DNA from: Thioalkalivibrio sp.
Lineage (GTDB): Bacteria > Pseudomonadota > Gammaproteobacteria > Ectothiorhodospirales > Ectothiorhodospiraceae
Direction: 5' to 3'
NCBI RefSeq assembly: GCF_007692535.1
Contig: NZ_REBW01000214.1
Location: 1 to 51,674, forward strand
DNA length: 51,674 nt
Shown here: piece after piece, positions 1,189 to 51,674 of the stretch
Layout of the letters: each line of letters starts with the position of its first letter
Numbering within the stretch: the first letter of the stretch is position 1
The notes under the pieces: generated by a model
What the model was told of the DNA's origin: nothing
Databases searched by the model: none
What the model saw: only the letters and a program-made list of their open reading frames with translations
Program-made: the position numbers and the translations under genes

Positions 1189-1803
1189 ATGTACCCGCAC
1201 GTTTTGCGCGCAGCCGCGCTGCTGCTGACCCTGTTTTTTGCGAGCAGCGGCCTTGCCGCGGACGAACCCGCAAGCCGTTCCATCTTCGGCTGGGTCGAGC
1301 GGGTCGAGATTCTGCCTGAAGGAATATCGCTGAAGGCCAAGATGGATACCGGGGCGACCACATCGTCGCTGAATGCGCTGAACAAGGAGGCCTTCCGCCG
1401 CGATGGAGAGCGCTGGATCGCCTTTGACATCATCGACCCCGAGACTCCGGACAGCAAGGTGCGGCTGGAGCGCAAGGTCACCCGTTACGTCCGGATCGTT
1501 CGCCACGATGGCGAGCACCAGCGGCGGCCCGTGGTCACGATCGGGCTTTGCATGGGTAGCATCTACCTTGAAGAGGAAATGAACCTGGTCGACCGTACGC
1601 AGCTGAATTACCAGGCCCTGGTGGGCCGTAATCACATGGCGGGGGCCATCTTGGTGGACCCGGCGGAGACGTTTATCCAGTCGCCGCGCTGCGAGTTGCC
1701 GGAGGGAGTCGCGGACACCACGGAATTGCACCCGGCAGTTGATCCTTCGGCTTACGATGCGGCCCCGATTGCAGGGAAGCGGCACGTGGCGCGGGGGTTA
1801 TGA
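1189..1803 (+). CDS. Exported retropepsin-like aspartic protease (RimB/RloA-like)
   Basis: A 204-residue protein. Residues 1-24 form a signal peptide (MYPHVLRAAALLLTLFFASS, then GLAA before the cut), so it acts in the periplasm. The mature part belongs to the putative ATP-dependent zinc protease/retropepsin-like family: the aspartic protease motif MDTGATTSSL is visible at about residues 50-60, and the LVGRNHM segment typical of the family lies near the end. The start at 1189 is supported by GGAGG at 1179-1183; in-frame ATGs at 1168 and 1177 lack such a site. Its stop overlaps the next start (ATGA). In the family this gene neighbours an inactive transglutaminase/TM protein and an ATP-grasp ligase, as here, suggesting joint handling of a peptide or amide modification. 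Substrate unknown. Confidence 0.82.
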   Translation: MYPHVLRAAALLLTLFFASSGLAADEPASRSIFGWVERVEILPEGISLKAKMDTGATTSSLNALNKEAFRRDGERWIAFDIIDPETPDSKVRLERKVTRYVRIVRHDGEHQRRPVVTIGLCMGSIYLEEEMNLVDRTQLNYQALVGRNHMAGAILVDPAETFIQSPRCELPEGVADTTELHPAVDPSAYDAAPIAGKRHVARGL

Positions 1804-3329
1804 GGCGCCTGCACCTTCCGCTGCTGATTCTGCTTCTGACGGGGCTCAGCCTCGGGGTTTTTTATCACAAGGTCTGGAATCTCGGTTTCCCGGTACTGCC
1901 GGCCCAGACCACTGACAACTGGACCGTCGAAGCGCGCGTGGCGTTCGAGCCAACGGGTGGTGCGCTCACCGCCCGGCTGTTCCTGCCGCATGAGCCCCCC
2001 GGTTTTGCTCTTCTGGACGAACACTTCGTATCCCGCGGCTACGGTCTGGCCACCGGTATGGGCGCTGATAACCGGGAAGCGACCTGGACCACACGCAGTC
2101 CGAGCGGTCGGCAGGTGCTCTACTACCGTGCCGCGGTCTACCAGTTGCAACGCTCCCTGCGAACCCAACCGGAGTACCCCGGCCCCGCCGATGTCCCGGA
2201 TCTGGAGGAGCCCTACCTGTCCGCGGCAGAGACCATCATCGACCAGGTGCGTGCGCGTTCCGCCGACATCACCAGCTTCGCGACTGTGCTGGTACGCGAC
2301 ATGCTCAGCGCTGCCGATGAGAACATGGGGCTGTTCGTGTCCGGGAATGCCAGCGAACGCGACCGTGTGGCTGTCGCGATCGAACTGCTGGCTGGCGCCC
2401 GTATACCGGCCCGTATGGCCCACGGGCTGCAGCTGACGGATCGTGGCCGGGACCTGCAGCCCCGGACCTGGCTCGAGGTCCACAATACCCGTGAGTGGGT
2501 TGCGGTCAACCCCAACGACGGCAGCGTGGGCTATCCCGAGCATTTCCTGGTCTGGTGGTACGGAGATGGCGATCCGGTAGAACTGAGCCGTGCCCGCAAC
2601 GCGCAGGTCAGCTTTGCGGTCAGCCGAAATTTCCAGGATGCGGTGGATACCGCACAGCAGCGCGCGAAACTCCTGAACTCCCGGGTGATGGATTTCTCGC
2701 TGTTCGGGCTGCCGGTGCAGACCCAGAACATGTACCGGGTGCTTCTGATGGTTCCGGTCGGCGCGATGATCATCGTGCTGTTGCGCAACGTGGTCGGTGT
2801 GCAGACCTTCGGCACCTTCATGCCGGTACTGATCGCGCTGTCGTTTCGCGAGACCGAACTGCTCGGCGGGGTGATCCTGTTTACCCTCATCGTATCGCTG
2901 GGGCTGGCCATACGGTTCTATCTGGAACACCTGAAGCTGCTGCTGGTACCCCGGCTCGCGGCCGTGGTCAGTATCGTGGTGATGCTGATGCTGGCCTTGA
3001 GCATCCTCAGTCACCGCCTGGGGATCGAACACGGACTGGCCATCGCGTTGTTCCCGATGGTGATCCTGGCGATGACCATCGAACGCATGTCGATCGTCTG
3101 GGAAGAACACGGGGCCGGGGACGCGATCCGGCAGGGAATCGGAAGCCTGATGGTTGCGGTAGCTGGATATCTGCTGATGATCAATCCCTATATCGAGCAC
3201 CTGATCTTCGTGTTCCCCGAACTGCTCCTGATCGTGCTCGCCGCCACTTTGCTGCTGGGGCGTTATACCGGGTACCGCCTGTCTGAGTTGCTGCGGTTCC
3301 GGGTGTTGGCGGGTCGCTCCAAGTCATGA
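1800..3329 (+). CDS. Inactive transglutaminase fused to multi-TM domain (UUP1 family)
   Basis: A 509-residue inner-membrane protein. One TM helix (about residues 5-22) is followed by a large periplasmic region to about residue 305. Within it a transglutaminase-like core is recognisable (ELLAGARIPARMAHGLQL, then RTWLEVHNTREWVAVNP), but the catalytic cysteine is missing and the His position before W is Arg, so it should not be enzymatic. The last 190 residues hold about six or seven hydrophobic helices. It overlaps the protease upstream and the ATP-grasp gene downstream by 4 bases each, implying translational coupling. The arrangement matches a known conserved trio; the periplasmic domain probably binds peptide or polyglutamate-like ligands (inference). 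Confidence 0.85.
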   Translation: MRRLHLPLLILLLTGLSLGVFYHKVWNLGFPVLPAQTTDNWTVEARVAFEPTGGALTARLFLPHEPPGFALLDEHFVSRGYGLATGMGADNREATWTTRSPSGRQVLYYRAAVYQLQRSLRTQPEYPGPADVPDLEEPYLSAAETIIDQVRARSADITSFATVLVRDMLSAADENMGLFVSGNASERDRVAVAIELLAGARIPARMAHGLQLTDRGRDLQPRTWLEVHNTREWVAVNPNDGSVGYPEHFLVWWYGDGDPVELSRARNAQVSFAVSRNFQDAVDTAQQRAKLLNSRVMDFSLFGLPVQTQNMYRVLLMVPVGAMIIVLLRNVVGVQTFGTFMPVLIALSFRETELLGGVILFTLIVSLGLAIRFYLEHLKLLLVPRLAAVVSIVVMLMLALSILSHRLGIEHGLAIALFPMVILAMTIERMSIVWEEHGAGDAIRQGIGSLMVAVAGYLLMINPYIEHLIFVFPELLLIVLAATLLLGRYTGYRLSELLRFRVLAGRSKS

Positions 3330-4279
3330 AGTGGTTCATCACCCCGCAGGAATTGCGGCGTCAGGGCGTCGTGGGCATGAACCGCCGCAACACGCAGATG
3401 ATCGCTGAGCTGAATCCGCGCAGCCGCTACCCCCTGGTGGACGACAAGCTGCAGACCAAGGCGGTCGCCATCGCTGCCGGCATCTCCGTGCCCGAACTGT
3501 ACGGGGTGATCGAGACCAACCACGACGTTCGGCACCTGCCTGCAATCGTCGCCGGGCGCGAGGATTTTGTGATCAAGCCCGCTCACGGCAGCGGCGGCAA
3601 TGGGATTCTGGTGATCACGGGCAGGGTGGGCGAGCAATTTCGCAAGGCCTCGGGCCTGCTGGTGGATCTGGATGGTCTCAAGCACCACGTTTCCAACATC
3701 CTGAGCGGGATGTACAGCCTCGGCGGACAGCCTGATCGGGCGATGATCGAATACCGGGTCCGCTTCGACCCATTGTTCGGGCAGGTGAGTTTTCAGGGTG
3801 TGCCGGACATCCGCACGGTGGTCTACAAGGGCTACCCGGCGATGGCCATGGTACGCCTGCCGACCCGCACCTCCGACGGCAAGGCCAACCTGCACCAGGG
3901 CGCCGTGGGCGCGGGCATCGCCATCGCCACCGGCGTCACCGGCCATGGTGTCCTGCACAACGACATCGTCGATCAGCACCCGGATACCGGCGCTCCGCTC
4001 GGTGGTATCGCGATCCCCGGCTGGGGCCGACTGTTGGAACTGGCCGCCGGCTGTTACGAACTCACCGGCCTGGGCTACCTCGGCGTGGACGTGGTGCTCG
4101 ACCGTGATCTAGGCCCGCTGATTCTCGAACTGAACGCCAGGCCCGGCCTTGCCGTGCAGATTGCGAACGGCACCGGCCTTCTGGGCAACGTCGAATGCAT
4201 CGATGCGCGCGCAGCGCAGGCAGCCCTCGGTCCTGCTGACCGGGTTGCCTTCGTCCGGGGTCTTGCGCTGCGCGAATGA
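3326..4279 (+). CDS. ATP-grasp alpha-L-glutamate ligase-like protein (RimK-related)
   Basis: A 317-residue cytoplasmic ATP-grasp enzyme. The nucleotide-binding segment FVIKPAHGSGGNGILVI is near residues 87-103, and the Mg-binding segment LILELNARPGLAVQIAN near residues 267-283. The N-terminal region (NRRNTQMIAELNPRSRYPLV) is typical of the alpha-L-glutamate ligase-like family. Such enzymes join an amino acid to a carboxylate with ATP hydrolysis. Its start overlaps the stop of the transglutaminase-like gene. With the periplasmic protease and membrane partner it forms a three-gene unit with amide-bond making and cutting capacity on opposite sides of the membrane. The real substrate is not known from sequence. 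Confidence 0.85.
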   Translation: MKWFITPQELRRQGVVGMNRRNTQMIAELNPRSRYPLVDDKLQTKAVAIAAGISVPELYGVIETNHDVRHLPAIVAGREDFVIKPAHGSGGNGILVITGRVGEQFRKASGLLVDLDGLKHHVSNILSGMYSLGGQPDRAMIEYRVRFDPLFGQVSFQGVPDIRTVVYKGYPAMAMVRLPTRTSDGKANLHQGAVGAGIAIATGVTGHGVLHNDIVDQHPDTGAPLGGIAIPGWGRLLELAAGCYELTGLGYLGVDVVLDRDLGPLILELNARPGLAVQIANGTGLLGNVECIDARAAQAALGPADRVAFVRGLALRE

Positions 4280-4379: not shown

Positions 4380-5771
4380 TCAGGCTGCGTCGGCCAGCGG
4401 GTTGCTCTGTCCGGGGCGCGAGACCTTCAGCGTAACCAGTTCCTCGGAACTGGTCGGATGGATCGGGATGGTCAGGTCGAAGTCGCGCTTGGTTGCACCC
4501 ATGCGTACCGCGACCGCGAAGCCCTGCAGCATCTCGTCCACTGCGTCGCCGACCATGTGGATGCCGACCACGCGTTCGTCTTCTCCCGCACAGACCAGCT
4601 TCATCGCAATCGGTGCGATGTCAGCTTCGGCGAAGGCGCGGGCGAGGCCGCCGTACTCGGTTTCGTACACGTGTACTGCGTCGCCGAACCGCTCCACGGC
4701 CTGGGGCTCGGTCATGCCGACCGCAGCGGTGGGGGGATGGGTGAAGGTGACCGTCGGGATCTGCGCGTAGTCGACCGGCACGGGGTTCCGTTCCGGCGCG
4801 AACCAGCGGTCGGCAAGCCGGCGCCCGGCGGCGATGGCCACGGGTGTCAGCGGAGCCTTGCCGATGATGTCGCCGAGTGCGAACACGCCAGGGACGTTGG
4901 TCTCCTGCCACTCGTCAACCGGAACGGTGTGGTTGGGTTGGATCTCGACGCCAGCGGCCTCCAGGCCGATATCCCGCGTCTTCGGGCGCCGGCCGACGGC
5001 CCACAGCACCCGCTCAAAGGGACCGAATTCCCGGGCCTCGGCCACCTGGACCCGGATCGCGCCGGGTTCTCCGGCCAGACCCTTCACCGTCGAGCCGAGA
5101 TGGCGAACGATGCCCTGTTCTTCCATGTGTCGTTCGATCACGTGGCTGACCATCGGGTCGAACATCTCCAGCACCCGCTCCTCCATCGCGATCACCGTGA
5201 CCTCCACCCCGAAGGAGCGCAGCATGCCAGCCATCTCCAGACCGATGTAACCGGCCCCGATGATCGCAATGGACTTGGGCAGGTCCTCCCACTGAAAGAA
5301 GTCATCCGAGGTGGCGCCGAGGTCGTGACCGGGCATCCGCGGCACGATGGGTTCGCCGCCGGTGGCGATGACCACGCGCTTGCCCTGATAGGTCTTGCCT
5401 CCGGCCGACACGGTATTCGCATCGACGAGTTGCGCGCGCTCGGGCACGTAGTCCACCCCCAGGCGCTCCAGGTAACCGGACCAGTAGTCGTTCAGCATCC
5501 GCAGGAAGTCGTGGCGGCGTTTTACCAGCTCACCGTAGCGGATGCCGGAGACGTCGACATCGACGCCGAATTCGTGCGCGTGGCGGGCCTGGCTGAGGTG
5601 ATGGGCTGCGTACCAGGTCAATTTCTTCGGGACGCAACCCTCGTTGACGCAGGTACCACCCAGCGGCTTGGGGTCGAAGACGACTGCACGTGCGCCATGG
5701 CCTGCCGCCCTTTCAGCGACCGCGAGGCCGCCACTGCCCCCGCCGATCACGAGGATGTCGTAGTGTTCCAT
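4380..5771 (-). CDS. gor: Glutathione-disulfide reductase
   Basis: A 463-residue class I pyridine nucleotide-disulfide oxidoreductase. The FAD-binding GGGSGG is at residues 10-15, the redox disulfide CVNEGC at 41-46, the NADPH-binding GAGYIGLEMAG in the middle, and the C-terminal HPTSSEE supplies the catalytic His/Glu. The EGC spacing and HPTSSEE fit glutathione reductase better than lipoamide or mercuric reductase. It reduces GSSG with NADPH. The start at 5771 has GGGAG about 5 bases upstream; an upstream in-frame Met (5822) adds 17 non-conserved residues. It lies downstream of the peroxiredoxin-glutaredoxin gene on the same strand, which consumes its product GSH. Confidence 0.93.
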   Translation of the reverse strand: MEHYDILVIGGGSGGLAVAERAAGHGARAVVFDPKPLGGTCVNEGCVPKKLTWYAAHHLSQARHAHEFGVDVDVSGIRYGELVKRRHDFLRMLNDYWSGYLERLGVDYVPERAQLVDANTVSAGGKTYQGKRVVIATGGEPIVPRMPGHDLGATSDDFFQWEDLPKSIAIIGAGYIGLEMAGMLRSFGVEVTVIAMEERVLEMFDPMVSHVIERHMEEQGIVRHLGSTVKGLAGEPGAIRVQVAEAREFGPFERVLWAVGRRPKTRDIGLEAAGVEIQPNHTVPVDEWQETNVPGVFALGDIIGKAPLTPVAIAAGRRLADRWFAPERNPVPVDYAQIPTVTFTHPPTAAVGMTEPQAVERFGDAVHVYETEYGGLARAFAEADIAPIAMKLVCAGEDERVVGIHMVGDAVDEMLQGFAVAVRMGATKRDFDLTIPIHPTSSEELVTLKVSRPGQSNPLADAA

Positions 5772-5886
5772 GCTGGCTCCCGTTGTGGTTGTGTGACAAA
5801 CGTGCGCCAAGTGTCGGGGCACGGCGGGAAATTGAATATCAGGATTTTAACGTATTCTCGTACGGAGGGCTCAAAGGCTGGGCAGA

Positions 5887-5913
5887 CGCGCCGGAAACAA
5901 GGTTTCCGGCGCG
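5887..5913 (-). terminator. 12-bp stem-loop between the peroxiredoxin-glutaredoxin and gor genes
   Basis: A perfect inverted repeat CGCGCCGGAAAC (5887-5898), loop AAG, GTTTCCGGCGCG (5902-5913), beginning 7 bases after the upstream gene's stop. There is no T-run on the minus-strand 3' side, so it is not a canonical intrinsic terminator. It may partially terminate transcription or protect the upstream message. Confidence 0.55.
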
Positions 5914-5920
5914 GTCTTCG

Positions 5921-6667
5921 TCAGGCGGCCTGATCGCGGGTCAGCCATGCCTTGAGGTCTTCGGAGCCGCCGATGCGGTGGCCGCCAACGAATACCTGAG
6001 GCACGGTCATTGCGCCGGTGGCGGCGCGGAGGCCGCGCAGGGTGGTATCACGTCCGAGCACGATCTCCTCGAACTCCATCGCTGCGTTCTGCAAGTCGTC
6101 CTTCGCGGCTTTGCAGTAGGGGCAGCCCGGCTTGGTGAAGAGCACCACGTCCTGGGGACGCGACACCTTCGGGGCGATGTGCTCCAGCATGGTGTCCGCA
6201 TCGGAAACCACGAAGGGGTCGCCGGGCTCGTCGGGCTCGACGAACTGCTTTTCGATCACGCCATCGCGTACCAGCATGGAATAGCGCCAGGACCGCTTGC
6301 CGAAGCCGAGGTCGGACTTGTCGACCAGCATGCCCATGCGGTCCGTGAACTCACCGTTGCCATCGGCCAGGAAAGTGACGCGGTCTGCCTTCTGGTCGGC
6401 CTGCCAGGCCTCCATTACGAAGCCGTCGTTGACCGAGATGCAGACGATTTCATCGATTCCCTGCGCCTTGAACACTGGTGCCAGCTCGTTGTAACGCGGC
6501 AGGTGGGCGGACGAGCAGGTGGGGGTGAACGCGCCCGGAAGGGCGAAGACCACCACATTGCGGCCCTTGAAGATGTCCTGGGAGCGGATGTCGTTCCAGT
6601 CGTTGTCGGTGCGGCAGCGGAACGTGATCTCGGGTACGCGCTGGCCTTCTCGTGTTTTCAGTTCCAT
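5921..6667 (-). CDS. Peroxiredoxin-glutaredoxin hybrid (glutathione peroxidase activity)
   Basis: A 248-residue fusion. Residues 1-165 are a Prx5-type peroxiredoxin with the peroxidatic Cys51 in PGAFTPTC; residues 170-248 are a glutaredoxin with the active site CPYC (182-185) and the TVPQVFVGG segment. Fusions of this kind reduce hydroperoxides directly with glutathione. The start at 6667 is preceded by GGAGAA at good distance; an upstream Met (6736) is unlikely. The downstream neighbour is glutathione reductase, closing the GSH cycle. The upstream region (6740-6800) is strikingly AT-rich for this genome and probably holds the promoter; no clear OxyR site was recognised. Confidence 0.93.
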   Translation of the reverse strand: MELKTREGQRVPEITFRCRTDNDWNDIRSQDIFKGRNVVVFALPGAFTPTCSSAHLPRYNELAPVFKAQGIDEIVCISVNDGFVMEAWQADQKADRVTFLADGNGEFTDRMGMLVDKSDLGFGKRSWRYSMLVRDGVIEKQFVEPDEPGDPFVVSDADTMLEHIAPKVSRPQDVVLFTKPGCPYCKAAKDDLQNAAMEFEEIVLGRDTTLRGLRAATGAMTVPQVFVGGHRIGGSEDLKAWLTRDQAA

Positions 6668-6739
6668 GAAGTTCTCCTGGTTTGCATGAATGGGTTTCAA
6701 AGTTTTTCGTCCAGTCCGTGCTGGAACGAGGCCCACCCT

Positions 6740-15430: not shown

Positions 15431-16009
15431 ATGAGCGAAAAGGCTTCAGATGAGGCTCTTGTTCTGCGTGTGCAACGCGGGGAGAAGGCGGCTTTTGACA
15501 TCCTGGTCCTCAAGTATCAACACAAGATCATCAACCTCGTGGGGCGCTACGTGCACGACCATGCCGCGGCTCTGGACGTTTCCCAGGAGGCCTTCATCAA
15601 GGCCTACCGGGGCCTCGCCAACTTTCGTGGTGAAAGCGCCTTCTACACGTGGTTGTACCGCATTGCGATCAACACCGCGAAGAATTATCTGGTCGCTCAG
15701 GGAAGACGGCGGCCGGAGGCCGAGGTGGATGTGCAGGACGCCGAGCAGATGGGAGGCGACTCGGCACTCAAGGAGAATGCAACCCCGGAAGGGGAGTTGT
15801 TGTCACAGGAGATACAGGCGGCAGTGCAGCGGACAATCGAGCGGTTGCCGGATGATCTGCGCACCGCGATCACGTTGCGTGAACTCGAGGGACTGAGCTA
15901 CGAGGAGATTGCCCAGACCATGGGATGTCCGATCGGAACGGTTCGGTCGCGCATCTTCCGGGCCCGAGAGGCCATCGACCGGACCCTGCGTCCACTGCTA
16001 AACGATTGA
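15431..16009 (+). CDS. rpoE: RNA polymerase sigma factor RpoE (AlgU)
   Basis: A 192-residue group IV sigma factor. Region 2 (KYQHKIINLVGRYVHDHAAA, then DVSQEAFIKAYRGL and FYTWLYRIAINTAKN) recognises the -10, and region 4 (LPDDLRTAITLRELEGLSYE, IAQTMGCPIGTVRSRIFRAR) the -35. It directs the response to misfolded outer-membrane proteins. It heads rpoE-rseA-rseB-rseC, followed by degP, and has its own sigma-E-like promoter upstream. Confidence 0.97.
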   Translation: MSEKASDEALVLRVQRGEKAAFDILVLKYQHKIINLVGRYVHDHAAALDVSQEAFIKAYRGLANFRGESAFYTWLYRIAINTAKNYLVAQGRRRPEAEVDVQDAEQMGGDSALKENATPEGELLSQEIQAAVQRTIERLPDDLRTAITLRELEGLSYEEIAQTMGCPIGTVRSRIFRAREAIDRTLRPLLND

Positions 16010-16020
16010 GCGAGCAGAGA

Positions 16021-16545
16021 ATGAACAACCAAGTCAGCAAAGCCGAGCGCCTTTCCGCTCTCATCGACAACGAAACCGACACCTTCGAGACCCGCCGCCT
16101 GATCGATGAATTGATGAAGTCCGGGGAGGACCGGGCGCAATGGTCACGCTATCACCTGATCGGTGACAGCCTGCGTGGGGGAATGACGCAGGTCGCCCCG
16201 GTAGATTTCCTCGCCCGCGTGCAGGAAGGCATCGCCGAGGACGCACCGCTCGACGTATCGGTCGGATCGAGGCAGAGGCTGCGCTGGCTGAAGCCGGTGG
16301 CGGGTGTCGGCGTGGCCGCGACGGTGGCGATGGTTTCACTCTTGGGGCTGCAGATGGTCACTGGCGGCGGCGACGATGCTCCGATCGTTACGGTCGAAGT
16401 CGCCCCGGCGTCGGAGCCCGACGCGACCGACACGGGGACGGCCCCCGATCCCCGCTTCGCACGCTATCTGGAAAACCACGCAGAACTGGTTGCTCCGGGT
16501 TCCTCGGCGTTTGCCCGGGTCCGGAATTCGGTTGACGGCGAGTAG
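16021..16545 (+). CDS. rseA: Anti-sigma-E factor RseA (MucA)
   Basis: A 174-residue single-pass membrane protein. The N-terminal cytoplasmic domain (ERLSALIDNETDTFETRRLI, WSRYHLIGDSLRG) binds sigma-E; a TM helix follows (about 100-118, VGVAATVAMVSLLGLQMV); the short periplasmic tail is bound by RseB and cut by DegS. Regulated proteolysis of this protein frees sigma-E. 11 bases after rpoE. The start at 16021 excludes an in-frame upstream extension that lies inside rpoE. Confidence 0.93.
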   Translation: MNNQVSKAERLSALIDNETDTFETRRLIDELMKSGEDRAQWSRYHLIGDSLRGGMTQVAPVDFLARVQEGIAEDAPLDVSVGSRQRLRWLKPVAGVGVAATVAMVSLLGLQMVTGGGDDAPIVTVEVAPASEPDATDTGTAPDPRFARYLENHAELVAPGSSAFARVRNSVDGE

Positions 16546-16552
16546 CGCGGGG

Positions 16553-17548
16553 ATGTTGCGCTGGCGCCGTGATCTTCCGGCGACGTTGCTCATGCTGCTG
16601 TCGTTTACGCTGCACGCCGGGCAAGACGACCCCAATGTCTGGCTGGAGCGGATGGCGCAAAGTCTGCACACGCACAGTTACGAGGGGACCTTCATCTTCC
16701 AGCGCGGCGACCGCATCGACACGGTACGGGTGGTGCATTCGGCCGAAGACGGTGGCTACCGGGAGCGTTTGCAGACGCTCACCGGCTCCGCGCGCGAGGT
16801 CATCCGTTCGGTGGACCGCATCAGTGCCCTCAAGGGTGCGCGTGTGGAAGGCGATGGCGGGCAGCAGGGCGCGCCGCAAAGGCCCCCGGCGATCGCCGGC
16901 TCAATGTTGCGGGCCAACGAGCGTTATGACCTGCAGTCGCCGGGATACGATCGTATTGCCGGCTTCTCCTGTTACATGTTGCATGCCGAGGCACGGGACG
17001 GTTACCGCTACAGTCATCAGTATTGCCTGCACCGCGATACCGGGCTGCCCCTGTTGAGCGAACTGATCGACGCCGACGGACAGCTCCTGGAGCGACTGGT
17101 ATTCACCGAGCTGGAATTTCTGGACGTCGTGTTCGAGGAATCGCTGAAGGCACGCGGCTGTGATGCCCGTCATATTGAAATACGTTCCGCAGATGACGGG
17201 GGCACGGTGACCGGGCAGGAAGGGGAATGGTATTTCGAGGGTCTTCCTCCCGGCTTTGCCACGGTCATCGCCACTGAGCGCGTGTTCGGTCCGGATGCTG
17301 CGCCCTCCCTGCATTTCGTGCTCAGCGACGGACTGGCCACGGTTTCTGTCTACGTCGCCGCCAGCGAGGAGGTCTCCGAGGCCTTCGAAGGGTACACGCG
17401 TTCCGGCGCCACCCATGCAGTGGCCAGGCCTGTAGCCGGGCACCAGGTGACAGTGGTCGGTGAGGTGCCGAAGAAGACGGTCGAATGGATTGCCGAATCG
17501 GCGCGCTTCCGGGCCGCGGGTGCCGGCGAAGACGCAACGGCGCGCTGA
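16553..17548 (+). CDS. rseB: Sigma-E regulator RseB (MucB)
   Basis: A 331-residue periplasmic protein with a signal peptide (MLRWRRDLPATLLMLLSFTL, cut after HAG). The MucB/RseB core begins DPNVWLERMAQSLHTHSYEG, a LolA-like lipid-binding domain, followed by the smaller C-terminal domain (LHFVLSDGLATVSVYV, then HQVTVVGEVPKKTVEWIAES). It shields RseA from DegS until LPS or lipoprotein signals displace it. 7 bases after rseA. The ribosome site is only a GGGG run. Confidence 0.92.
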   Translation: MLRWRRDLPATLLMLLSFTLHAGQDDPNVWLERMAQSLHTHSYEGTFIFQRGDRIDTVRVVHSAEDGGYRERLQTLTGSAREVIRSVDRISALKGARVEGDGGQQGAPQRPPAIAGSMLRANERYDLQSPGYDRIAGFSCYMLHAEARDGYRYSHQYCLHRDTGLPLLSELIDADGQLLERLVFTELEFLDVVFEESLKARGCDARHIEIRSADDGGTVTGQEGEWYFEGLPPGFATVIATERVFGPDAAPSLHFVLSDGLATVSVYVAASEEVSEAFEGYTRSGATHAVARPVAGHQVTVVGEVPKKTVEWIAESARFRAAGAGEDATAR

Positions 17549-17562
17549 AGGTATCTCCGGCG

Positions 17563-18060
17563 ATGAGCGACTGGATCGAGGAACAGGGCGTCGTCGTGAA
17601 CGCTGATGATGCCTGGGCCACGGTGCGCATGCAGCGTCAGTCCACCTGCGGTTCCTGTTCCGCGCGCAGCGGTTGCGGCAACGGCGTGCTGTCCGAGGTG
17701 CTCGGGCGCCGGGCGCTGGAGCTTCGTCTGGCCAATGTCCATGGTCTGAGGCCCGGTGACCGTGTGACCCTGGGCATTCGCGATCGCGCGCTGGTTTCGG
17801 GTGCTTTGGCGATGTACATGCTGCCGCTGTTCGGCCTGATCGCGGCTCCAACACTTCTGGGAGCGCTGTTTGCCGGTCTGTCCGAGGGCTGGCTGATTCT
17901 CGCCGGTGCGGCCGGTTTCGGTTTGGGCCTGATGGTGGTGCGGCGCTGGCTGCGGGCCCAGGGACAGCGGTTCGACCCCGTGCTGCTTGGATGCGAGCCA
18001 GCCCGTCTTTCTCCGGCGCCGATGGCCGGTGCGGGCGGCCTGTCCCGTCCTGATTCCTGA
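17563..18060 (+). CDS. rseC: RseC/MucC-family membrane protein
   Basis: A 165-residue inner-membrane protein. An N-terminal domain with a cysteine cluster (C29, C32, C38 in STCGSCSARSGCG) precedes two adjacent TM helices (ALAMYMLPLFGLIAAPTLLG and WLILAGAAGFGLGLMVV). The family is linked to sigma-E regulation and to reduction of the SoxR cluster. The start at 17563 is taken because the matching MSDWIEEQGVVV begins the conserved part. Last gene of the rpoE operon before a 150-base gap. Confidence 0.9.
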   Translation: MSDWIEEQGVVVNADDAWATVRMQRQSTCGSCSARSGCGNGVLSEVLGRRALELRLANVHGLRPGDRVTLGIRDRALVSGALAMYMLPLFGLIAAPTLLGALFAGLSEGWLILAGAAGFGLGLMVVRRWLRAQGQRFDPVLLGCEPARLSPAPMAGAGGLSRPDS

Positions 18061-18156
18061 GCGCGGACGGCGGAAACCGCGTGACGTTTCGGCGCGTCGC
18101 GGCGTCCCCGCCCAAGGCGACATGAACCCCCTGGATGCCGGCCGGTTTCGTGAGCG

Positions 18157-18185
18157 GGAACTTGCGTGCCCGGATTCCCTCTAGA
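18157..18185 (+). promoter_or_regulatory. Sigma-E promoter of degP
   Basis: GGAACTT at 18157-18163, exactly 16 bases, then TCTAGA at 18180-18185. The -35 is identical to the sigma-E consensus and the -10 matches TCT at the key positions. The gene starts 30 bases further on. The sequence therefore predicts direct sigma-E control of the protease. Confidence 0.82.
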
Positions 18186-18214
18186 GTGATACTCACTGAC
18201 CCCTGAAGGTGCAC

Positions 18215-19630
18215 ATGAAAGCTTATCGATGGTTCTTCCTGGCGACGGTGCTGATTGCGCTTTCGATACCCGCATCCGCACGCCACCTGCCCGATTTCGT
18301 CGACCTGGCGGAACAATACAGCCCAGCGGTGGTGAATATTTCCACGTCTCGTGAGCGGCCCGCAGTAGAAGGCGGGGGGGGCGGGGCGCCCGACATCCCC
18401 GAGGGCATGCCGTTCGGTGATCTCCTCGAGCGTTTCTTCGGCGAGCGTGGCCAACCCGGGTTACCCGAGCGTTTCGAGCGTGGTTCGATGGGGTCCGGCT
18501 TCATCTACACTGAAGACGGCTACATCCTGACCAATCACCACGTGATCGAGAACGGTGGCGAGATCGTGGTGCGCCTGTCCGACCGGCGCGTCTTCACCGC
18601 TGAACTGATCGGTTCCGACCCACAGAGCGATGTGGCGGTGCTGAAGATCGACGCCGACGAACTGCCGACGCTGAAGCTGGGCAGCTCGGAATCCCTGAAG
18701 GTCGGCGAATGGGTGCTGGCGATCGGATCACCGTTCGGCTTCGATCACTCGGTGACGGCCGGCATCGTCAGCGCGAAGGGCCGCAGTCTCCCTTCCGACA
18801 ACTATGTTCCGTTCATCCAGACCGACGTGGCGATCAATCCGGGCAACTCCGGCGGTCCGCTGTTCAACATGGACGGCGAGGTGGTCGGCATCAACTCCCA
18901 GATCTACAGCCGCACCGGCGGGTTCATGGGCCTGTCCTTCGCGATCCCGATCGACATGGCCGTCGAGGTGGCCCGGCAGCTGCGCGAGACCGGCACCGTC
19001 ACTCGCGGCTGGCTGGGGGTGCTGATCCAGGAAGTGACGCGTGAACTGGCCGATTCCTTCGGTATGTCCCGGCCAACCGGGGCGCTGGTCGCGCAGGTGC
19101 AGCCGGACAGCCCGGCCGAAAAGGCCGGCTTCCGCACCGGAGACGTGATCCTGCGTTTCAACGGGATCGACGTGCCCCGCTCCAGTGCCCTGCCGCCGAT
19201 CGTCGGCCGGACCCCGGTGGGTTCCGAAGTCGATGTGGACGTGCGCCGCGGCGACGAGGAGATCGTGATCGGGGTTACCATCGAAGCGCTTCCCGAGGAA
19301 GTGGCCAGTGCCCGCAGTCGCACGCCCGCGCCGCCGGTACAGCCCCAGAGCCTGCTGGGGATGCAGGTCGAGCCCCTGACCGAAGAGGAACGTTCGGCGC
19401 TGGGTCTGGGCGAGTCGGGTATCCGGGTCATCGAAGTGACCGACAATCCCGCGCGCGCCGCAGGTGTGCGCTCCGGTGACGTGATCGCGCAGTTTGGCGG
19501 CGACCCCGTGACCTCCGTCGACGACTTCCGGGAGCAGGTGGAAGCCGCCTCGGCCGGACGATCCGTGCCGGTGTTGATCCACCGTGACGGCAACCCCGTG
19601 TTCATCGCCCTGCGCATCCCGAATTCGTGA
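18215..19630 (+). CDS. degP: Periplasmic serine protease DegP/MucD (Do family)
   Basis: A 471-residue HtrA protease. Signal peptide 1-23; protease domain with His109 (TNHHV), Asp139 (SDVAVLK) and Ser212 (GNSGGP); two PDZ domains at about 255-345 and 375-465. It degrades or refolds misfolded envelope proteins. An in-frame GTG at 18209 is possible, but the ATG at 18215 has AAGG at a better distance. A sigma-E consensus promoter lies just upstream, and the gene follows rseC as mucD does in Pseudomonas. Its stop overlaps a GTG used by the next frame. Confidence 0.95.
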   Translation: MKAYRWFFLATVLIALSIPASARHLPDFVDLAEQYSPAVVNISTSRERPAVEGGGGGAPDIPEGMPFGDLLERFFGERGQPGLPERFERGSMGSGFIYTEDGYILTNHHVIENGGEIVVRLSDRRVFTAELIGSDPQSDVAVLKIDADELPTLKLGSSESLKVGEWVLAIGSPFGFDHSVTAGIVSAKGRSLPSDNYVPFIQTDVAINPGNSGGPLFNMDGEVVGINSQIYSRTGGFMGLSFAIPIDMAVEVARQLRETGTVTRGWLGVLIQEVTRELADSFGMSRPTGALVAQVQPDSPAEKAGFRTGDVILRFNGIDVPRSSALPPIVGRTPVGSEVDVDVRRGDEEIVIGVTIEALPEEVASARSRTPAPPVQPQSLLGMQVEPLTEEERSALGLGESGIRVIEVTDNPARAAGVRSGDVIAQFGGDPVTSVDDFREQVEAASAGRSVPVLIHRDGNPVFIALRIPNS

Positions 19631-19953
19631 CCGGCGAAAGGCGCGGACTCGCCGGCCGCCCCGGCCAGCGACCCGCGTCATCGGGCCGCGCTAGCGTGCA
19701 GGGTCAGCCGGTTCGCCGGCTGACCCTTTACCATCGAGTCGACTGCGGGCTCTGCGAGAGGATGCTTGCGGAGCTATCGCAGCTGGAAAGCCGTTATACT
19801 TTCGCGCTTGAGCGTATCGACATCGATGAGGAGCCGGGACTTTCCGCGCGTTTCAATGCCAAGGTCCCCGTGCTGGCGGTGGACGGAGAGATCCTCTGCT
19901 GCCATTTCCTCGATACGTCGGCCCTGATCGACGAGCTGACCCGGAATGACTGA
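19627..19953 (+). CDS. Glutaredoxin-like protein (DUF836 type)
   Basis: A thioredoxin-fold protein: strand RLTLYHR, active site CGLC (C41 to C44 if the first GTG is used), helix, then [11 protein letters not shown] with the cis-Pro and a final helix. Family members are about 80-85 residues, which would suit a start at the GTG at 19696; the frame is open from a GTG at 19627 that overlaps the degP stop (GTGA), giving 108 residues with an Arg/Gly-rich N-terminus that looks non-conserved. A UUCG stem-loop sits at 19701-19726 inside the 5' part. It overlaps lepA by 8 bases. This gene between mucD and lepA is common in gammaproteobacteria. Confidence 0.8.
19701..19726 (+). terminator. Stem-loop with UUCG tetraloop after degP
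   Basis: GGGTCAGCCGG (19701-19711), loop TTCG, CCGGCTGACCC (19716-19726), then TTTA. The 11-bp perfect stem with an extra-stable UUCG loop is typical of terminators, but the T-run is only three bases. It lies within the 5' end of the glutaredoxin-like coding frame, so it may be an attenuator after degP or mark the true start of the downstream gene as later than 19627. Confidence 0.5.
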
Positions 19954-21748
19954 AACCCGACTGACCCGCAACTTCTCCATCATCGCGCACATCGACCACG
20001 GGAAATCCACACTCGCCGACCGGCTGATCCAGGTCTGCGGTGGTCTGGCCGAGCGCGAGATGGCGGAACAGGTGCTGGATTCGATGGACCTGGAACGCGA
20101 GCGCGGGATCACCATCAAGGCGCAGAGCGTGTCGCTGTACTACGACGCGGCCGACGGCGAGCGCTACCAGCTCAACTTCATCGATACTCCCGGCCACGTC
20201 GACTTCTCCTACGAGGTGTCGCGCTCCCTCGCCGCCTGTGAGGGAGCGCTCCTGGTGGTGGATGCCTCGCAGGGCGTCGAGGCGCAAAGCGTCGCGAACT
20301 GCTACACGGCGATCGATCAGGGTCTGGAAGTGGTGCCGGTGCTGAACAAGATCGACCTGCCGGCCGCCGACCCCGACCGGGTCGCCACCGAGATCGAGGA
20401 CGTGATCGGGATCGAGGCCGAGAATGCGATCCGGGTCTCGGCCAAGACCGGGGAGGGGATTGCGGACCTGCTGGAAGAGTTGGTTCGGCGGATTCCGCCG
20501 CCGGAAGGCAGTGCCGACGCGCCGCTGCAGGCGCTGGTCATCGACTCCTGGTATGACAACTACCTTGGTGTCGTGGCGCTGGTGCGGGTCAAGTCCGGAC
20601 GCCTCTACGCCAAGCGCCGGATCATCGCGATGTCGGTGGGCCGCGCCTACGAGGTCGATCGAGTCGGTGTGTTCACACCGAAACCGCTGGACAAACCGTT
20701 CCTGGAGGTCGGCGAGGTCGGCTACGTCATCGCCAGCATCAAGGACATCACCGGTGCCAAGGTCGGCGATACCTTCACCGACGCGCAGAAGCCGGCCGGG
20801 AACCCGCTCCCCGGCTTCAAGGAGATCCAGTCCCGGGTCTTTGCCGGCCTGTTCCCGATCAGCGCGGAGGACTTCAACGACCTGCGCGAGGCCCTGGACA
20901 AGCTGCGCCTGAACGATGCCTCCCTGCGGTTCGAGCCGGAGACCTCTCAGGCGCTGGGCTTCGGGTTCCGTTGCGGTTTTCTCGGCATGCTGCACATGGA
21001 GATCGTGCAGGAGCGCCTCGAGCGGGAGTACGGACTGGACCTGATCTCGACCGCGCCCACCGTGGTCTACGAGGTTGAAAAGACCAGCGGTGAGGTGGTG
21101 CCGGTACACAATCCCTCCGAGCTGCCCCCGTCCAACGAGATCGCCGAGATCCGCGAGCCCATCATCCTGGCCAATATCCTGGCACCCCAGGAATACGTGG
21201 GCGCAGTGATGACCCTGTGCGTGGAGAAGCGCGGCGTCCAGGTGAAGATGCAGTACATGGGCAGGCAGGTCGCGCTGTCCTATGAGATGCCGATGTCCGA
21301 GGTGGTGATGGATTTCTTTGACCGCCTGAAGTCGGCGACCAAGGGGTATGCGTCGTTCGATTATCAGCCGCTGCGGTTTCAGGCGGCGCCGCTCGTGCGG
21401 GTCGATGTCCTGATCAACGGTGAGCGCGTCGACGCGCTGTCGGCCATCCTGCACCGCGACCAGGCCCAGAGCCGCGGGCGGGACCTGACCGAACGCATGT
21501 GTGGCATCATCCCCCGGCAGATGTTCGAGGTGGCGATACAGGCAGCGATCGGCTCCAAGGTCATTGCGCGGTCGACGGTCAAGGCGCTGCGCAAGAATGT
21601 GCTCGCAAAGTGCTACGGCGGTGATGTCAGCCGCAAGCGCAAACTGCTGGAAAAGCAGAAGGCCGGCAAGCGTCGCATGAAGCAGATCGGGCGTGTCGAC
21701 GTACCCCAGGAGGCCTTCCTCGCCGTGCTGTCCACGGGCGACAAGTGA
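19946..21748 (+). CDS. lepA: Translation elongation factor 4 (LepA)
   Basis: A 600-residue translational GTPase. G1 [10 protein letters not shown] near residue 15, DTPGHVD (G3), NKIDLP (G4), then EF-G-like domains II, III and V and the LepA-specific C-terminal domain ([20 protein letters not shown]). It acts on stalled or mistranslocated ribosomes and in 30S biogenesis. The start overlaps the stop of the glutaredoxin-like gene by 8 bases. lepA-lepB-rnc-era-recO is the standard order. Confidence 0.97.
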
Positions 21749-48963: not shown

Positions 48964-50040
48964 TCAGAACCGGATGTGGGTCGAGGCGTTCAGGGTGTTG
49001 CGCGCGCCTCTCCAGTTCTCGATGTGGTAGCGGGTGAACGGGAGGCCGGTTTTCTCAAAGAAGGCGGGCCAGCCGATGCGCTCGATCCAGTCGTTGATGC
49101 GTTCCCAGTCCTGCCCGTCTTCCTGATAGACCTTCAGGATGCGCTTGACGATCGCCGTGGCCTCGGGCCAGCGCGGCGGGTTGTTCGGAATCCCGGAGGC
49201 GACCAGTTTCTGGAAGGTCGGCTTGCCGCGGGCATTCGAGTGGTTGCCGCCGACCCAGATCGCGAACTTGGTGTGCTCGGCGTCATTGATCTGCATCGGG
49301 GGGCAGGGCGGGTAGCAGGCGCCGCAGCAGATGCATTTCTTCTCGTCCACTTCCAGTGACGGCTTGCCGTTGACCAGCGCCGGACGGATCGCGGCCACCG
49401 GGCAGCGGGCGACCACCGAGGGGCGCTCGCAGACGTTGGCGACGAGGTCGTGGTTGATCTTCGGCGGCTTGGTGTGCTGCACGTTGATCGCGATGTCACC
49501 CTGGCCGCCGCAGTTGATCTGGCAGCAGGAGGTGGTGATGTGCACGCGATTGGGCATGTTGTGGTTGCGGAACTCGTCGATGAGTTCGTCCATCATCGCC
49601 TTCACCACGCCGGAGGCGTCGGTGCCGGGGATGTCGCAGTGCAGCCAGCCCTGGGTGTGGGAAATCATCGACACCGAGTTGCGGGTGCCGCCGACGATGA
49701 AGCCGGCCTCTTCCAGGGCGTTGATCAGGGGCTCGACCTTCTCCTCGGCATCGATCATGTACTCGATGTTCGAACGGATGGTGAAGCGGACATAGCCGTC
49801 GGCATACTCGTCACCGATATCGCAGAGCTTGCGCAATGTGAACACGTCGAGGATGCGCTGGGTGCCGGCCTTCACCGTCCAGATCTTCTCGCCGAACTCG
49901 GAGACGTGGAGCAGAACGCCGGGGCGGGGATGCTCGTGGTATTTCCACGCGCCGAAATTGCGGCGCATGACCGGGTGCATGTACTGAAAACCGTCCGGAC
50001 AACCGGATTCGATCGGCGGACGCATGGCTGTTTGTGACAT
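48964..50040 (-). CDS. dsrB: Reverse dissimilatory sulfite reductase, beta subunit
   Basis: A 358-residue protein with siroheme-[4Fe-4S] cysteines in the TTSCCQINCGGQGD block (near 170-182) and further Cys at 204 and 213, and a ferredoxin domain CICCGACYPPCPPM (236-249). It forms the alpha2beta2 enzyme that oxidises DsrC-bound sulfur to sulfite in sulfur oxidisers. GGGAG precedes the start. 59 bases after dsrA. Confidence 0.97.
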   Translation of the reverse strand: MSQTAMRPPIESGCPDGFQYMHPVMRRNFGAWKYHEHPRPGVLLHVSEFGEKIWTVKAGTQRILDVFTLRKLCDIGDEYADGYVRFTIRSNIEYMIDAEEKVEPLINALEEAGFIVGGTRNSVSMISHTQGWLHCDIPGTDASGVVKAMMDELIDEFRNHNMPNRVHITTSCCQINCGGQGDIAINVQHTKPPKINHDLVANVCERPSVVARCPVAAIRPALVNGKPSLEVDEKKCICCGACYPPCPPMQINDAEHTKFAIWVGGNHSNARGKPTFQKLVASGIPNNPPRWPEATAIVKRILKVYQEDGQDWERINDWIERIGWPAFFEKTGLPFTRYHIENWRGARNTLNASTHIRF

Positions 50041-50091
50041 CGGTGACTCCCGCTATCTTTTGAATTCGTTGGGTTCGATCAGGGGGCGGAA

Positions 50092-50110
50092 CCGCGGGAT
50101 CAACCCGCGG
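50092..50110 (-). promoter_or_regulatory. Stem-loop straddling the dsrA stop codon
   Basis: CCGCGGG (50092-50098), loop ATCAA, CCCGCGG (50104-50110). The dsrA stop at 50100-50102 lies in the loop, so the last codons of dsrA form one arm. Such a structure would be opened by terminating ribosomes and reform afterwards. Confidence 0.6.
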
Positions 50111-51365
50111 CGGCCTGCCGCTTTTCCATCTTCTGGCGGAGGTAGTTTTCCGCGGCCTCGTCGTAATCGTCCATCCGGATGTAGGAGCTCTGGCGCGGGT
50201 GGCTGACCATGTTGGGATCGGCCTCGAGGCCCATGCCCTTCAGGAAGTTCACCAGGCCGATGCGCTCGATCATCTCGCCGCAACGCTCGTGCTCGAGGCC
50301 GTTCTCGGCCCAGAAGTCGATGATGTTCTCGGCCAGTTCGACCAGGCCCTGGTAGTCCTCTTCGGTGTCCAGCTTCATGAACGGCACGATCACGGTGCCC
50401 ATCAGGTCGCCGATCTTCAGCGTGCGCTTGCCACCGACCAGGATGCTGACGCCCTTGTCGTCACCGGGAGACAGGGCCTTGGTCATCACGTTGATGCAAT
50501 GCATGCAGCGGACGCAGTTGCTGTCCTCGATGTGGAGGGTGTTGTCCTCGTTCAGGGTCATGCACTTGCTGGGGCAGCGGTTGATCACGTCCAGGTGAAC
50601 CTTGTCGCGGCCGTACTCGGCGACGAAGTTCTTCACTTCTTCCTGGTCGATCTTGATCTCGTCGCGCCAGGTGCCGATCACCGCGAAGTCGGAACGCTCG
50701 ATCGCATTGACGCAGTCGTTCGGGCAGCCGGAGACCTTGAACTTGAACTTGTACGGCAGGGACGGACGGTGCACGTCGTCGGTGAAGCGGTTCAGCAGGA
50801 CGCGGTGGGCGCGCTGCTCGTTGGTGCAGGACTGCTCGCAGCGGGCCGCGCCGACGCAGGACATGCCGGTACGCACGCAGGGGCCGGCGCCACCGAGATC
50901 CCAGCCGTATTCGTTGATCTCGTCGAAGAAGCCCTGGGTGTTGGTCGTGTTGACGCCGATGAACATCGCGTTGCCGGTCTGGCCGTGGAAGGTGATCAGG
51001 CCGGAACCGTACTTCTCCCAGCTGTCGCCGAGCTGGCGCAGCATCGCGGTGGAGTAGAAGTTGCCGGCAGGCGGCTGCACACGGACGGTGTGGAACTCGC
51101 GCGATTCGGGGAAGGCCTTGGATACCTCGGAGAAGCGCGGGATGATGCCCGAGCCGTAACCGAACACCGAAACCGTACCGCCCTTCCAGTAGCCCTTGCG
51201 GGTTTCGTAGGAGTGCTCGAGCTGGCCCAACAGGTCGTTGGTGACGTTCTTGATGCGATCATCGGGATGATCGTCACGCAGGCGCTTGATTCCCGAGATG
51301 AAGCTCGGCCAAGGGCCGTTTTCCAACTCGTCGAGCATGGGGGTCGGATGATGTTGGTTCGCCAT
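50100..51365 (-). CDS. dsrA: Reverse dissimilatory sulfite reductase, alpha subunit
   Basis: A 421-residue protein. Siroheme/[4Fe-4S] cysteines C170, C176, C214 (SGCPNDC) and C218; inserted ferredoxin domain with C264, C268 and CVRCMHC at 284-290. Homologue of the sulfate-reducer enzyme, but dsrEFH and dsrL in the operon show the oxidative type. The start at 51365 has AGGAG 7 bases upstream; the frame stays open to 51500 but the extra 45 residues lack a site. Confidence 0.96.
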   Translation of the reverse strand: MANQHHPTPMLDELENGPWPSFISGIKRLRDDHPDDRIKNVTNDLLGQLEHSYETRKGYWKGGTVSVFGYGSGIIPRFSEVSKAFPESREFHTVRVQPPAGNFYSTAMLRQLGDSWEKYGSGLITFHGQTGNAMFIGVNTTNTQGFFDEINEYGWDLGGAGPCVRTGMSCVGAARCEQSCTNEQRAHRVLLNRFTDDVHRPSLPYKFKFKVSGCPNDCVNAIERSDFAVIGTWRDEIKIDQEEVKNFVAEYGRDKVHLDVINRCPSKCMTLNEDNTLHIEDSNCVRCMHCINVMTKALSPGDDKGVSILVGGKRTLKIGDLMGTVIVPFMKLDTEEDYQGLVELAENIIDFWAENGLEHERCGEMIERIGLVNFLKGMGLEADPNMVSHPRQSSYIRMDDYDEAAENYLRQKMEKRQAAAG

Positions 51366-51674
51366 GGCGGTCTCCTTGATCGGATTCTGTATGCAGGCCG
51401 GCTTGTTGCTTCCGGGATCGATACGTACCTTCTTTGTTTCGAATCGCGGTCCTTCACTCTGGCCAGATCGCCGGTCCGCCGATTCGTCGAACGAGATCAT
51501 CCAAGCGGATCACCTCGTCACACGGTGGGTTACTCTAGGTTCGAAGAAGCCCCGAAAACATCCTACTCATGGGGGGGGGGTGCATGGGGCGTATATCTCC
51601 CAAGGGATAGGGGGGGAAACGGGATCTGCCGGGGTGCGATCGTTCCTCGGGGCCGGACCTGCGCGCGACGCCCC
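51366..51674 (-). promoter_or_regulatory. Upstream region of the dsr operon
   Basis: 309 bases to the window end, without a supported gene. It must contain the main dsr promoter if the operon is transcribed from here, but no convincing -35/-10 pair was found. It holds a run of ten G bases (51571-51580, plus strand) and a run of seven (51610-51616) on either side of an ATATCTCC stretch. Confidence 0.4.

Follow-up and report, generated by a model that had tools for sequence, protein, structure and literature searches.

What do three coupled genes make whose proteins would form amide bonds on one side of the membrane and cut them on the other? This question is raised by a 51,674-nucleotide stretch of Thioalkalivibrio sp. 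DNA (contig NZ_REBW01000214.1 of assembly GCF_007692535.1; the whole stretch is called the window here), where a secreted aspartic protease, a membrane protein with an inactive transglutaminase domain and a cytoplasmic ATP-grasp ligase are encoded one after another at 1189-4279. A note made from the letters of this DNA (the original prediction) had proposed a peptide or glutamyl modification that is made inside the cell, sensed or carried by the membrane protein, and trimmed outside. By families, gene order, and active-site residues, the trio is almost certainly an rlo-type operon, the kind named in 2025 in Pseudomonas aeruginosa (rloA-rloB-rloC, PA14_41690-41710-41730; PMC12239564). As an explanation of the whole we favor, with a probability of roughly 0.55, an operon that would make, export, and trim poly-glutamate (poly-Glu).

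The operon and its three proteins

The genes follow the order A-B-C, and an ATGA at both junctions makes rloA and rloB, and likewise rloB and rloC, overlap by 4 bases (Table 1). Their products match PF05618 (E = 6.6e-37), PF14400 together with PF14402 (E = 4.4e-48 and 5.8e-106), and PF14397, all far over cut-off, and the ligase also scores 471 bits against TIGR02291 (cut-off 314.2). The protein assignments and the two overlaps of the original prediction are thus borne out, including the DTGA motif, the signal peptide as judged by eye, and the dead state of the transglutaminase domain. The window shares with P. aeruginosa the three families and their order, the dead transglutaminase domain, the RimK-like ATP-grasp ligase, and a secreted retropepsin with four pseudosymmetric poly-Glu contact residues; it differs in having one secreted retropepsin found in its genome versus three, and in RloA and RloB sequences that diverge beyond NCBIfam's narrow models. 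None of the curated cut-offs of NF052262, NF052264, and NF052267 (RloA/RloA3, RloB) is reached, with 129 bits against RloA3 (cut-off 210), 81 bits against RloA (cut-off 280), and 463 bits against the RloB model NF052267 (cut-off 900), and the proteins are therefore homologues rather than members of NCBI's named close orthologues. The window operon is a further member of a kind of operon that is already known.

Table 1. Positions of the operon's genes and their functional parts in the window.
Feature	Position	Strand	Basis
rloA-like gene (204 aa, secreted retropepsin-like aspartic peptidase)	1189..1803	+	PF05618
rloB-like gene (509 aa; membrane anchor, dead transglutaminase-like periplasmic domain, 7TM domain)	1800..3329	+	PF14400 + PF14402
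rloC-like gene (317 aa, cytoplasmic ATP-grasp, RimK-like ligase)	3326..4279	+	TIGR02291, PF14397
Putative signal peptide of RloA-like protein (~residues 1-24, MYPHVLRAAALLLTLFFASSGLA)	1189..1260	+	by eye
DTGA active-site motif of RloA-like protein	1345..1356	+	sequence; catalytic D kept in 97/97 aligned RloA
Inactive transglutaminase part of RloB-like protein (residues 23-181)	1866..2342	+	PF14400 match; model extends domain to ~residue 280
Codon of E186, place of catalytic Cys (R222 = His place, N237 = Asp place)	2355..2357	+	alignments
7TM_transglut domain (~residues 260-503)	2577..3308	+	PF14402
E268-L-N270 of RloC-like protein, presumed metal ligands of ATP-grasp site	4127..4135	+	conservation

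The closest solved relatives of the RloA-like protein are 9g59, 9g58, and 2pma. Although entry 9g58 carries a generic name, we take it to be P. aeruginosa RloA because all eight published contacts fit once the numbering is shifted by 20. Aligned to 9g58, the window protein retains the catalytic D48 and the contact residues K46, R92, R114, and R137. Across 97 RloA sequences, D48 and R114 are kept in all, K or R at position 46 in 96, R92 in 92, and R137 in 96; K95, K97, R99, and K109 are variable. P. aeruginosa RloA is reported to cut the peptides 8E and 10E but not 6E or shorter ones, with R114 and R137 being needed (PMC12239564). The genome of the window (3.13 Mb in 277 contigs, 99.8% complete) holds two PF05618 matches, this secreted retropepsin and a RimB-like one. 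The latter (locus L103, 4193-4726, minus strand, contig C196; 145 bits against the RimB cut-off of 200) has no signal peptide, and it may be an orphan, since no RimK was found in the 10 kb around it and the genome's best RimK-family match resembles, by eye, a glutathione synthetase.

RloB combines two domains of different character. At the positions of the Cys-His-Asp triad it carries Glu, Arg, and Asn, so that an active transglutaminase or cysteine peptidase is not indicated. A search by sequence for a solved relative found none. In the AlphaFold2 model (m87bf486306ea; mean predicted local distance difference test score, pLDDT, 82; predicted template modeling score 0.60), the periplasmic part resembles the putative cysteine protease 3isr (Z = 15.6) and the periplasmic domain of TgpA (Z = 8.0). 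The seven-transmembrane (7TM) domain matches best the membrane subunits of the Rnf complex, at a Z of 8 that lies in the range of common arrangements for helical bundles. Over 130 sequences its conserved residues are R329, G333, G338-F340-P342, P419, E428-R429, and G491; R329, R429, and R499 are each found in 128 of them, including both proteins that consist of a 7TM domain only.

A kinship between the 7TM domain and PgsC/CapC was considered and dropped, as the match score did not stand clear of controls. The idea came from sequence features of PgsC seen by eye and from a Pfam match in the divergent protein L095 (9 bits, E = 2.4). A CapC profile built on five CapC-like proteins of one bacterial family reached at best 19.4 in hhalign (P = 0.035), a score equalled by 1 of 40 column-shuffles and by 1 of 40 unrelated membrane proteins, and PF14102 (PgsC/CapC) was absent among the Pfam matches of the window's 7TM domain up to E = 10. 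In genome G388, which shares its family with G264 and G306 (see below), a weak match to CapC turned out by eye to be heme-A-synthase-like. In the poly-gamma-glutamate synthase PgsB-PgsC (CapB-CapC), too, the idea is that a ligase in the cytoplasm works together with a small membrane subunit; its ligase has another fold, and no homology of RloB's 7TM domain with CapC stands above the controls.

The RloC model (mb30f0dc6f996, pLDDT 90.6) has as its best PDB match 5zct, the RimK poly-alpha-L-glutamate synthetase (E = 1.1e-11), followed by other RimK entries and ArgX with glutamate and, lower, by cyanophycin synthetase and Ddl. Among 48 sequences 37 positions are invariant; E268 and N270, presumably the metal ligands, are present in all 48, divergent clades included.

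Gene content of related loci

The original prediction held that the trio is conserved across proteobacteria, which is correct for many genomes and not for all. In a GTDB genome scan with RloB, the best 80 of 519 confirmed loci had RloC adjoining in all 80 and an RloA match (tblastn) in 59; the closest were mostly metagenome-assembled genomes of Thioalkalivibrio, the first at 95%. In an even sample of the class, 39 of 185 genomes gave a total of 40 RloB-family matches, of which 36 have RloC within 3 kb, 32 a PF05618 retropepsin, and 30 both; one of the 40, in G077, is a sub-cut-off match of 20 bits where a custom RloB profile finds nothing. All 36 genomes with an RloC match above 150 bits also have an RloB-family match, and 23 further genomes with RloC-model matches below 50 bits only were taken as RimK-family background. 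PF05618 is matched in 90 of the 185 genomes because the family includes RimB. The conservation of the trio together exceeds chance.

We combined these loci into a comparison set of 128 RloB proteins (127 different, with some rows being the same or nearly the same genome found twice), which includes 40 of 63 full-length phylum-wide matches, the window's and that of G162 among them, the other 23 staying outside. RloC adjoins RloB in 126 of the 128 and is fused to it in one 838-aa protein (L093), and RloA adjoins in 96. Judged by this arrangement, RloB and RloC act as one unit, with RloA being separable. The original prediction had named independent occurrence of the three genes as a refutation; RloB and RloC almost never part, and RloA does. 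Among same-strand A-B pairs 37 of 95 overlap by 4 bases in frame, and the RloB stop codon lies within ATGA, GTGA, or TTGA in 78 of 125, which permits a 4-base B-C overlap (RloC starts were not individually checked). A third, divergent RloB type with a dead triad was observed in L094 (4753-7072) and L095 (5139-6761, with L204 3581-4084), whose genomes both hold a retropepsin secreted by eye, one with DSGA instead of DTGA.

The triad is dead in 119 of the 128 RloB proteins. An RloA-family gene stands within 3 kb of 96 of these (signal peptides were judged by eye, though not individually for these adjacent genes); of the 23 that lack an adjacent RloA, 6 have a secreted retropepsin elsewhere in the genome (G368, G571, G572, G573, G575, and G055). 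No secreted retropepsin was found in the genomes of the remaining 17, of which 14 have no PF05618 match at all and 3 a RimB-like one only; these are mostly draft genomes of unstated completeness. RloA trimming would hence not always be needed, or another peptidase does it. Inspection by eye upstream of RloB at 21 RloA-less loci revealed no replacement peptidase in the rloA position, the neighbors being mostly house-keeping-like; the contig of L063 starts 88 bases before RloB. At three loci where no RloA adjoins, porin- or OmpA-like genes were noted a short way downstream of RloC (L043 11666-12811, L046 10444-11823, and L047 9324-10046).

Clustering of the neighbors within 4 kb of RloBC, with the 14 widest clusters inspected by eye, showed no acceptor gene shared across clades. 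The clusters are mostly confined to related genomes, such as ubiquinone and glycine-cleavage genes (at most 17 loci) and PEP-synthase-like genes (16). A Fur-like regulator, recognized by eye, lies within the same distance at 14 loci in two groups (e.g., L168 6873-7361).

Nine of the 128 RloB proteins retain Cys-His-Asp (motifs ASCNGK, SHQW, and PFD), one of them scoring 63 bits as Transglut_core, and they form one clade that arose by one change on the tree (FastTree, support 99). None of the nine loci has an adjacent RloA, and the search for a secreted retropepsin came up empty in eight of the nine genomes. PF05618 has no match in five of these eight, two of which are only 88% complete, and the other three have RimB-like genes without a signal peptide, in two cases beside a RimK-like gene. 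The ninth, G033, is uninformative because it also holds a canonical rlo set. A strict rule of "live triad or RloA" was rejected for the 128 RloB, since it fails in one direction through the 17 dead-triad cases described above. In all nine live-triad loci RloC is followed by a tetratricopeptide repeat (TPR) protein; that of L146 is truncated where the contig ends, and that of L093 is more distant. Seven of the loci also have a 390-400 aa outer-membrane barrel, belonging to one family, after RloC; of the other two, the L146 contig ends first, and at L093 none was seen in the 8 kb examined. The barrel of L100 exceeds the MtrB/PioB cut-off, and the others are identified by weaker matches to barrel families and by appearance. 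The barrel also bears a weak likeness (26 bits, cut-off 275) to the exopolymer outer-membrane protein EpsL. We did not find this live-triad and barrel variant in the literature searched; a prior mention is possible in Iyer et al. 2009 (Mol Biosyst), a work cited by the rlo paper that reportedly predicted many amidoligase neighborhoods.

In one bacterial family, a small membrane protein was seen just upstream of the live-triad RloB (L145 6016-6570, L146 4427-4990, and L149 6011-6568), the L145 copy matching PepSY_TM weakly (22 bits, sub-cut-off). The bacterial family f186, which carries five of the live-triad RloB, also contains frames of up to ~1085 aa with two tandem CapC-like membrane domains (L104-L108 and L110-L114).

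The smallest arrangement occurs in two genomes outside the class, which have only the 7TM domain and the ligase. In these (loci L183 and L184; genomes G264 and G306) a 7TM protein without a transglutaminase domain overlaps or adjoins RloC. The 7TM gene is preceded there by one for a secreted protein of 314-315 aa that looks barrel-like by eye and for which Pfam gave no significant barrel match. By this comparison, the minimal core consists of the 7TM domain plus the ligase, and the processing parts around it are exchangeable.

A proposed polymer route and its alternatives

We propose that RloC and RloB form a ligase-coupled exporter of an acidic poly-amino acid, a mechanism to which we give about an even chance, and that RloA serves as its periplasmic trimmer, by analogy with AlgL. 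On the cytoplasmic side of RloB, RloC would build an alpha-linked chain from glutamate or an acidic amino acid like it. The 7TM domain would take the growing chain from RloC and pass it to the periplasm along a path that R329, R429, and R499 may line, and the dead transglutaminase-like domain would hold or guide it there. Secreted RloA would cut the chains once they reach a length of about eight residues, and would in this way keep a strongly anionic polymer from accumulating in the periplasm. The basis for this proposal is the ligase fold of the model obtained here and the poly-Glu specificity of RloA in Pseudomonas, and it is favored by the retention of all four poly-Glu contact residues in the window's RloA and by the association of the RloB-RloC unit with an outer-membrane protein in the live-triad clusters.

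The genetics of P. aeruginosa fit this picture. RloB and RloC together are reported to cause damage that RloA prevents; a rloA1-3 triple mutant fails to grow when salt is absent, and removing rloB or rloC from it restores growth fully and remedies other defects partly (PMC12239564). The osmotic-stress test of gene deletions that the original prediction called for had therefore already been done for the Pseudomonas set. Its view that the product is not settled still holds in vivo, with poly-glutamate chemistry being likely and a hypo-osmotic phenotype published; its scheme of a compound made inside, carried, and trimmed outside is the one we favor, and its suggestion that RloB senses the compound is unsupported. 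The main text of PMC12239564 contains no word starting with "export" or "transport".

A system that works alike, without being a member of the family, is alginate secretion, in which AlgK is a TPR protein. Periplasmic AlgL averts a lethal build-up of alginate, and alginate leaves via AlgK and the barrel AlgE (PMC8829089). In both cases a periplasmic depolymerase would guard the cell from its own polymer, and the TPR and barrel proteins found at the live-triad RloBC loci could provide an exit; the enzymes are unrelated, however, and alginate is a polysaccharide. Tentatively, and with the odds somewhat against it, RloC-RloB may be a new kind of poly-amino-acid synthase-exporter in which an ATP-grasp ligase feeds a 7TM channel. 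In canonical rlo the chain would stay in the periplasm as an anionic osmotic buffer whose length RloA limits. In the sister clade the live Cys-His-Asp domain would replace RloA, and the chain would pass by the membrane-anchored TPR protein and the outer-membrane barrel to the outside. An uncut polyanion would raise the periplasmic osmotic pressure, and this would account for growth without RloA failing only at low salt.

Several observations weigh against this export proposal. The 7TM domain could be tied, by sequence and structure comparison, to no known transporter and not to CapC/PgsC, and no TPR or barrel gene adjoins the window operon. The divergent RloB of L094 and L095 have no RloC nearby, and 17 of the 119 dead-triad RloB come from genomes where no secreted retropepsin was found. 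Finally, since the live-triad RloB form one clade, their lack of RloA counts as one event.

The glutamates might alternatively be attached to an acceptor. RloC would then glutamylate a protein, a lipid-linked precursor, or a peptidoglycan stem, which RloB presents or flips and RloA trims, tuning cell-wall synthesis or hydrolysis. RimK, the closest solved fold to RloC, glutamylates ribosomal protein S6, the Pfam domain of RloC is named "sugar-transfer associated ATP-grasp", and the authors of the P. aeruginosa study describe cell shape and ampicillin sensitivity phenotypes and leave the substrate open between a polyglutamylated protein and free poly-alpha-glutamate, with links to peptidoglycan also proposed (PMC12239564). 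We consider this route less likely, given that no plausible acceptor recurs across clades within 4 kb of RloBC (an unlinked one may exist) and that the barrel and TPR genes beside live-triad pairs point to something leaving the cell. More improbable still is a sensor circuit in which envelope stress or a peptide is detected by the dead transglutaminase domain and relayed to RloC, with RloA cleaving the ligand. The domain is indeed dead in 119 of 128 RloB, and in Vibrio cholerae the operon ranks with the loci that are most upregulated under the regulator VxrB (cited in PMC12239564), but the pair of 7TM protein and ligase persists without the domain in L183 and L184, and the sister clade's domain keeps its triad.

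The resemblance of RloA and RloC to RimB and RimK also raises the thought of a relocated RimB-RimK system that acts on S6-like or other ribosomal tails, with RloB being incidental. Both systems pair a retropepsin with a RimK-fold ligase and an alpha-linked poly-Glu, and RloA cuts S6-8E in vitro (PMC12239564). RimB-RimK is cytoplasmic, however, and lacks a membrane protein, whereas the window's RloA has a signal peptide by eye; its scores of 68 bits against the RimB model (cut-off 200), and of 34 bits for RloC against the RimK family (cut-off 143), fall short. In P. aeruginosa, moreover, a rimB deletion is reported to show no interaction with rloA deletions (PMC12239564), and we give this explanation hardly any weight.

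The export proposal matters beyond the window, as the rlo genes of a major pathogen influence its biofilm, its sensitivity to antibiotics, and its osmotic survival. PA1766, PA1767, and PA1768 were found in a suppressor screen of flagellar mutants with raised exopolysaccharide (PMC7314104), and PA1767 was mutated in four ceftazidime-selected mutants (PMC10187892). The comparison leads to a sharper, testable model of the RloB/RloC product, and the live-triad clade, which lies outside the window, offers a natural variant whose otherwise "dead" domain keeps the catalytic residues.

Genes around the operon

A promoter and terminator scan gave nothing above chance. Convergent with the trio, at 4380-6736 on the minus strand, lie genes for a pyridine nucleotide-disulfide reductase, which we take to be of the glutathione-reductase type, and for a peroxiredoxin-glutaredoxin hybrid. 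Further along, one stretch at 15431-21748 (plus strand) encodes an extracytoplasmic function (ECF) sigma factor, a DegP/MucD-like PDZ protease, and a protein recognized by eye as LepA. Two adjoining sulfite-reductase-type proteins are encoded at 48964-51500 on the minus strand; they are probably the dsrAB pair of a sulfur oxidizer.

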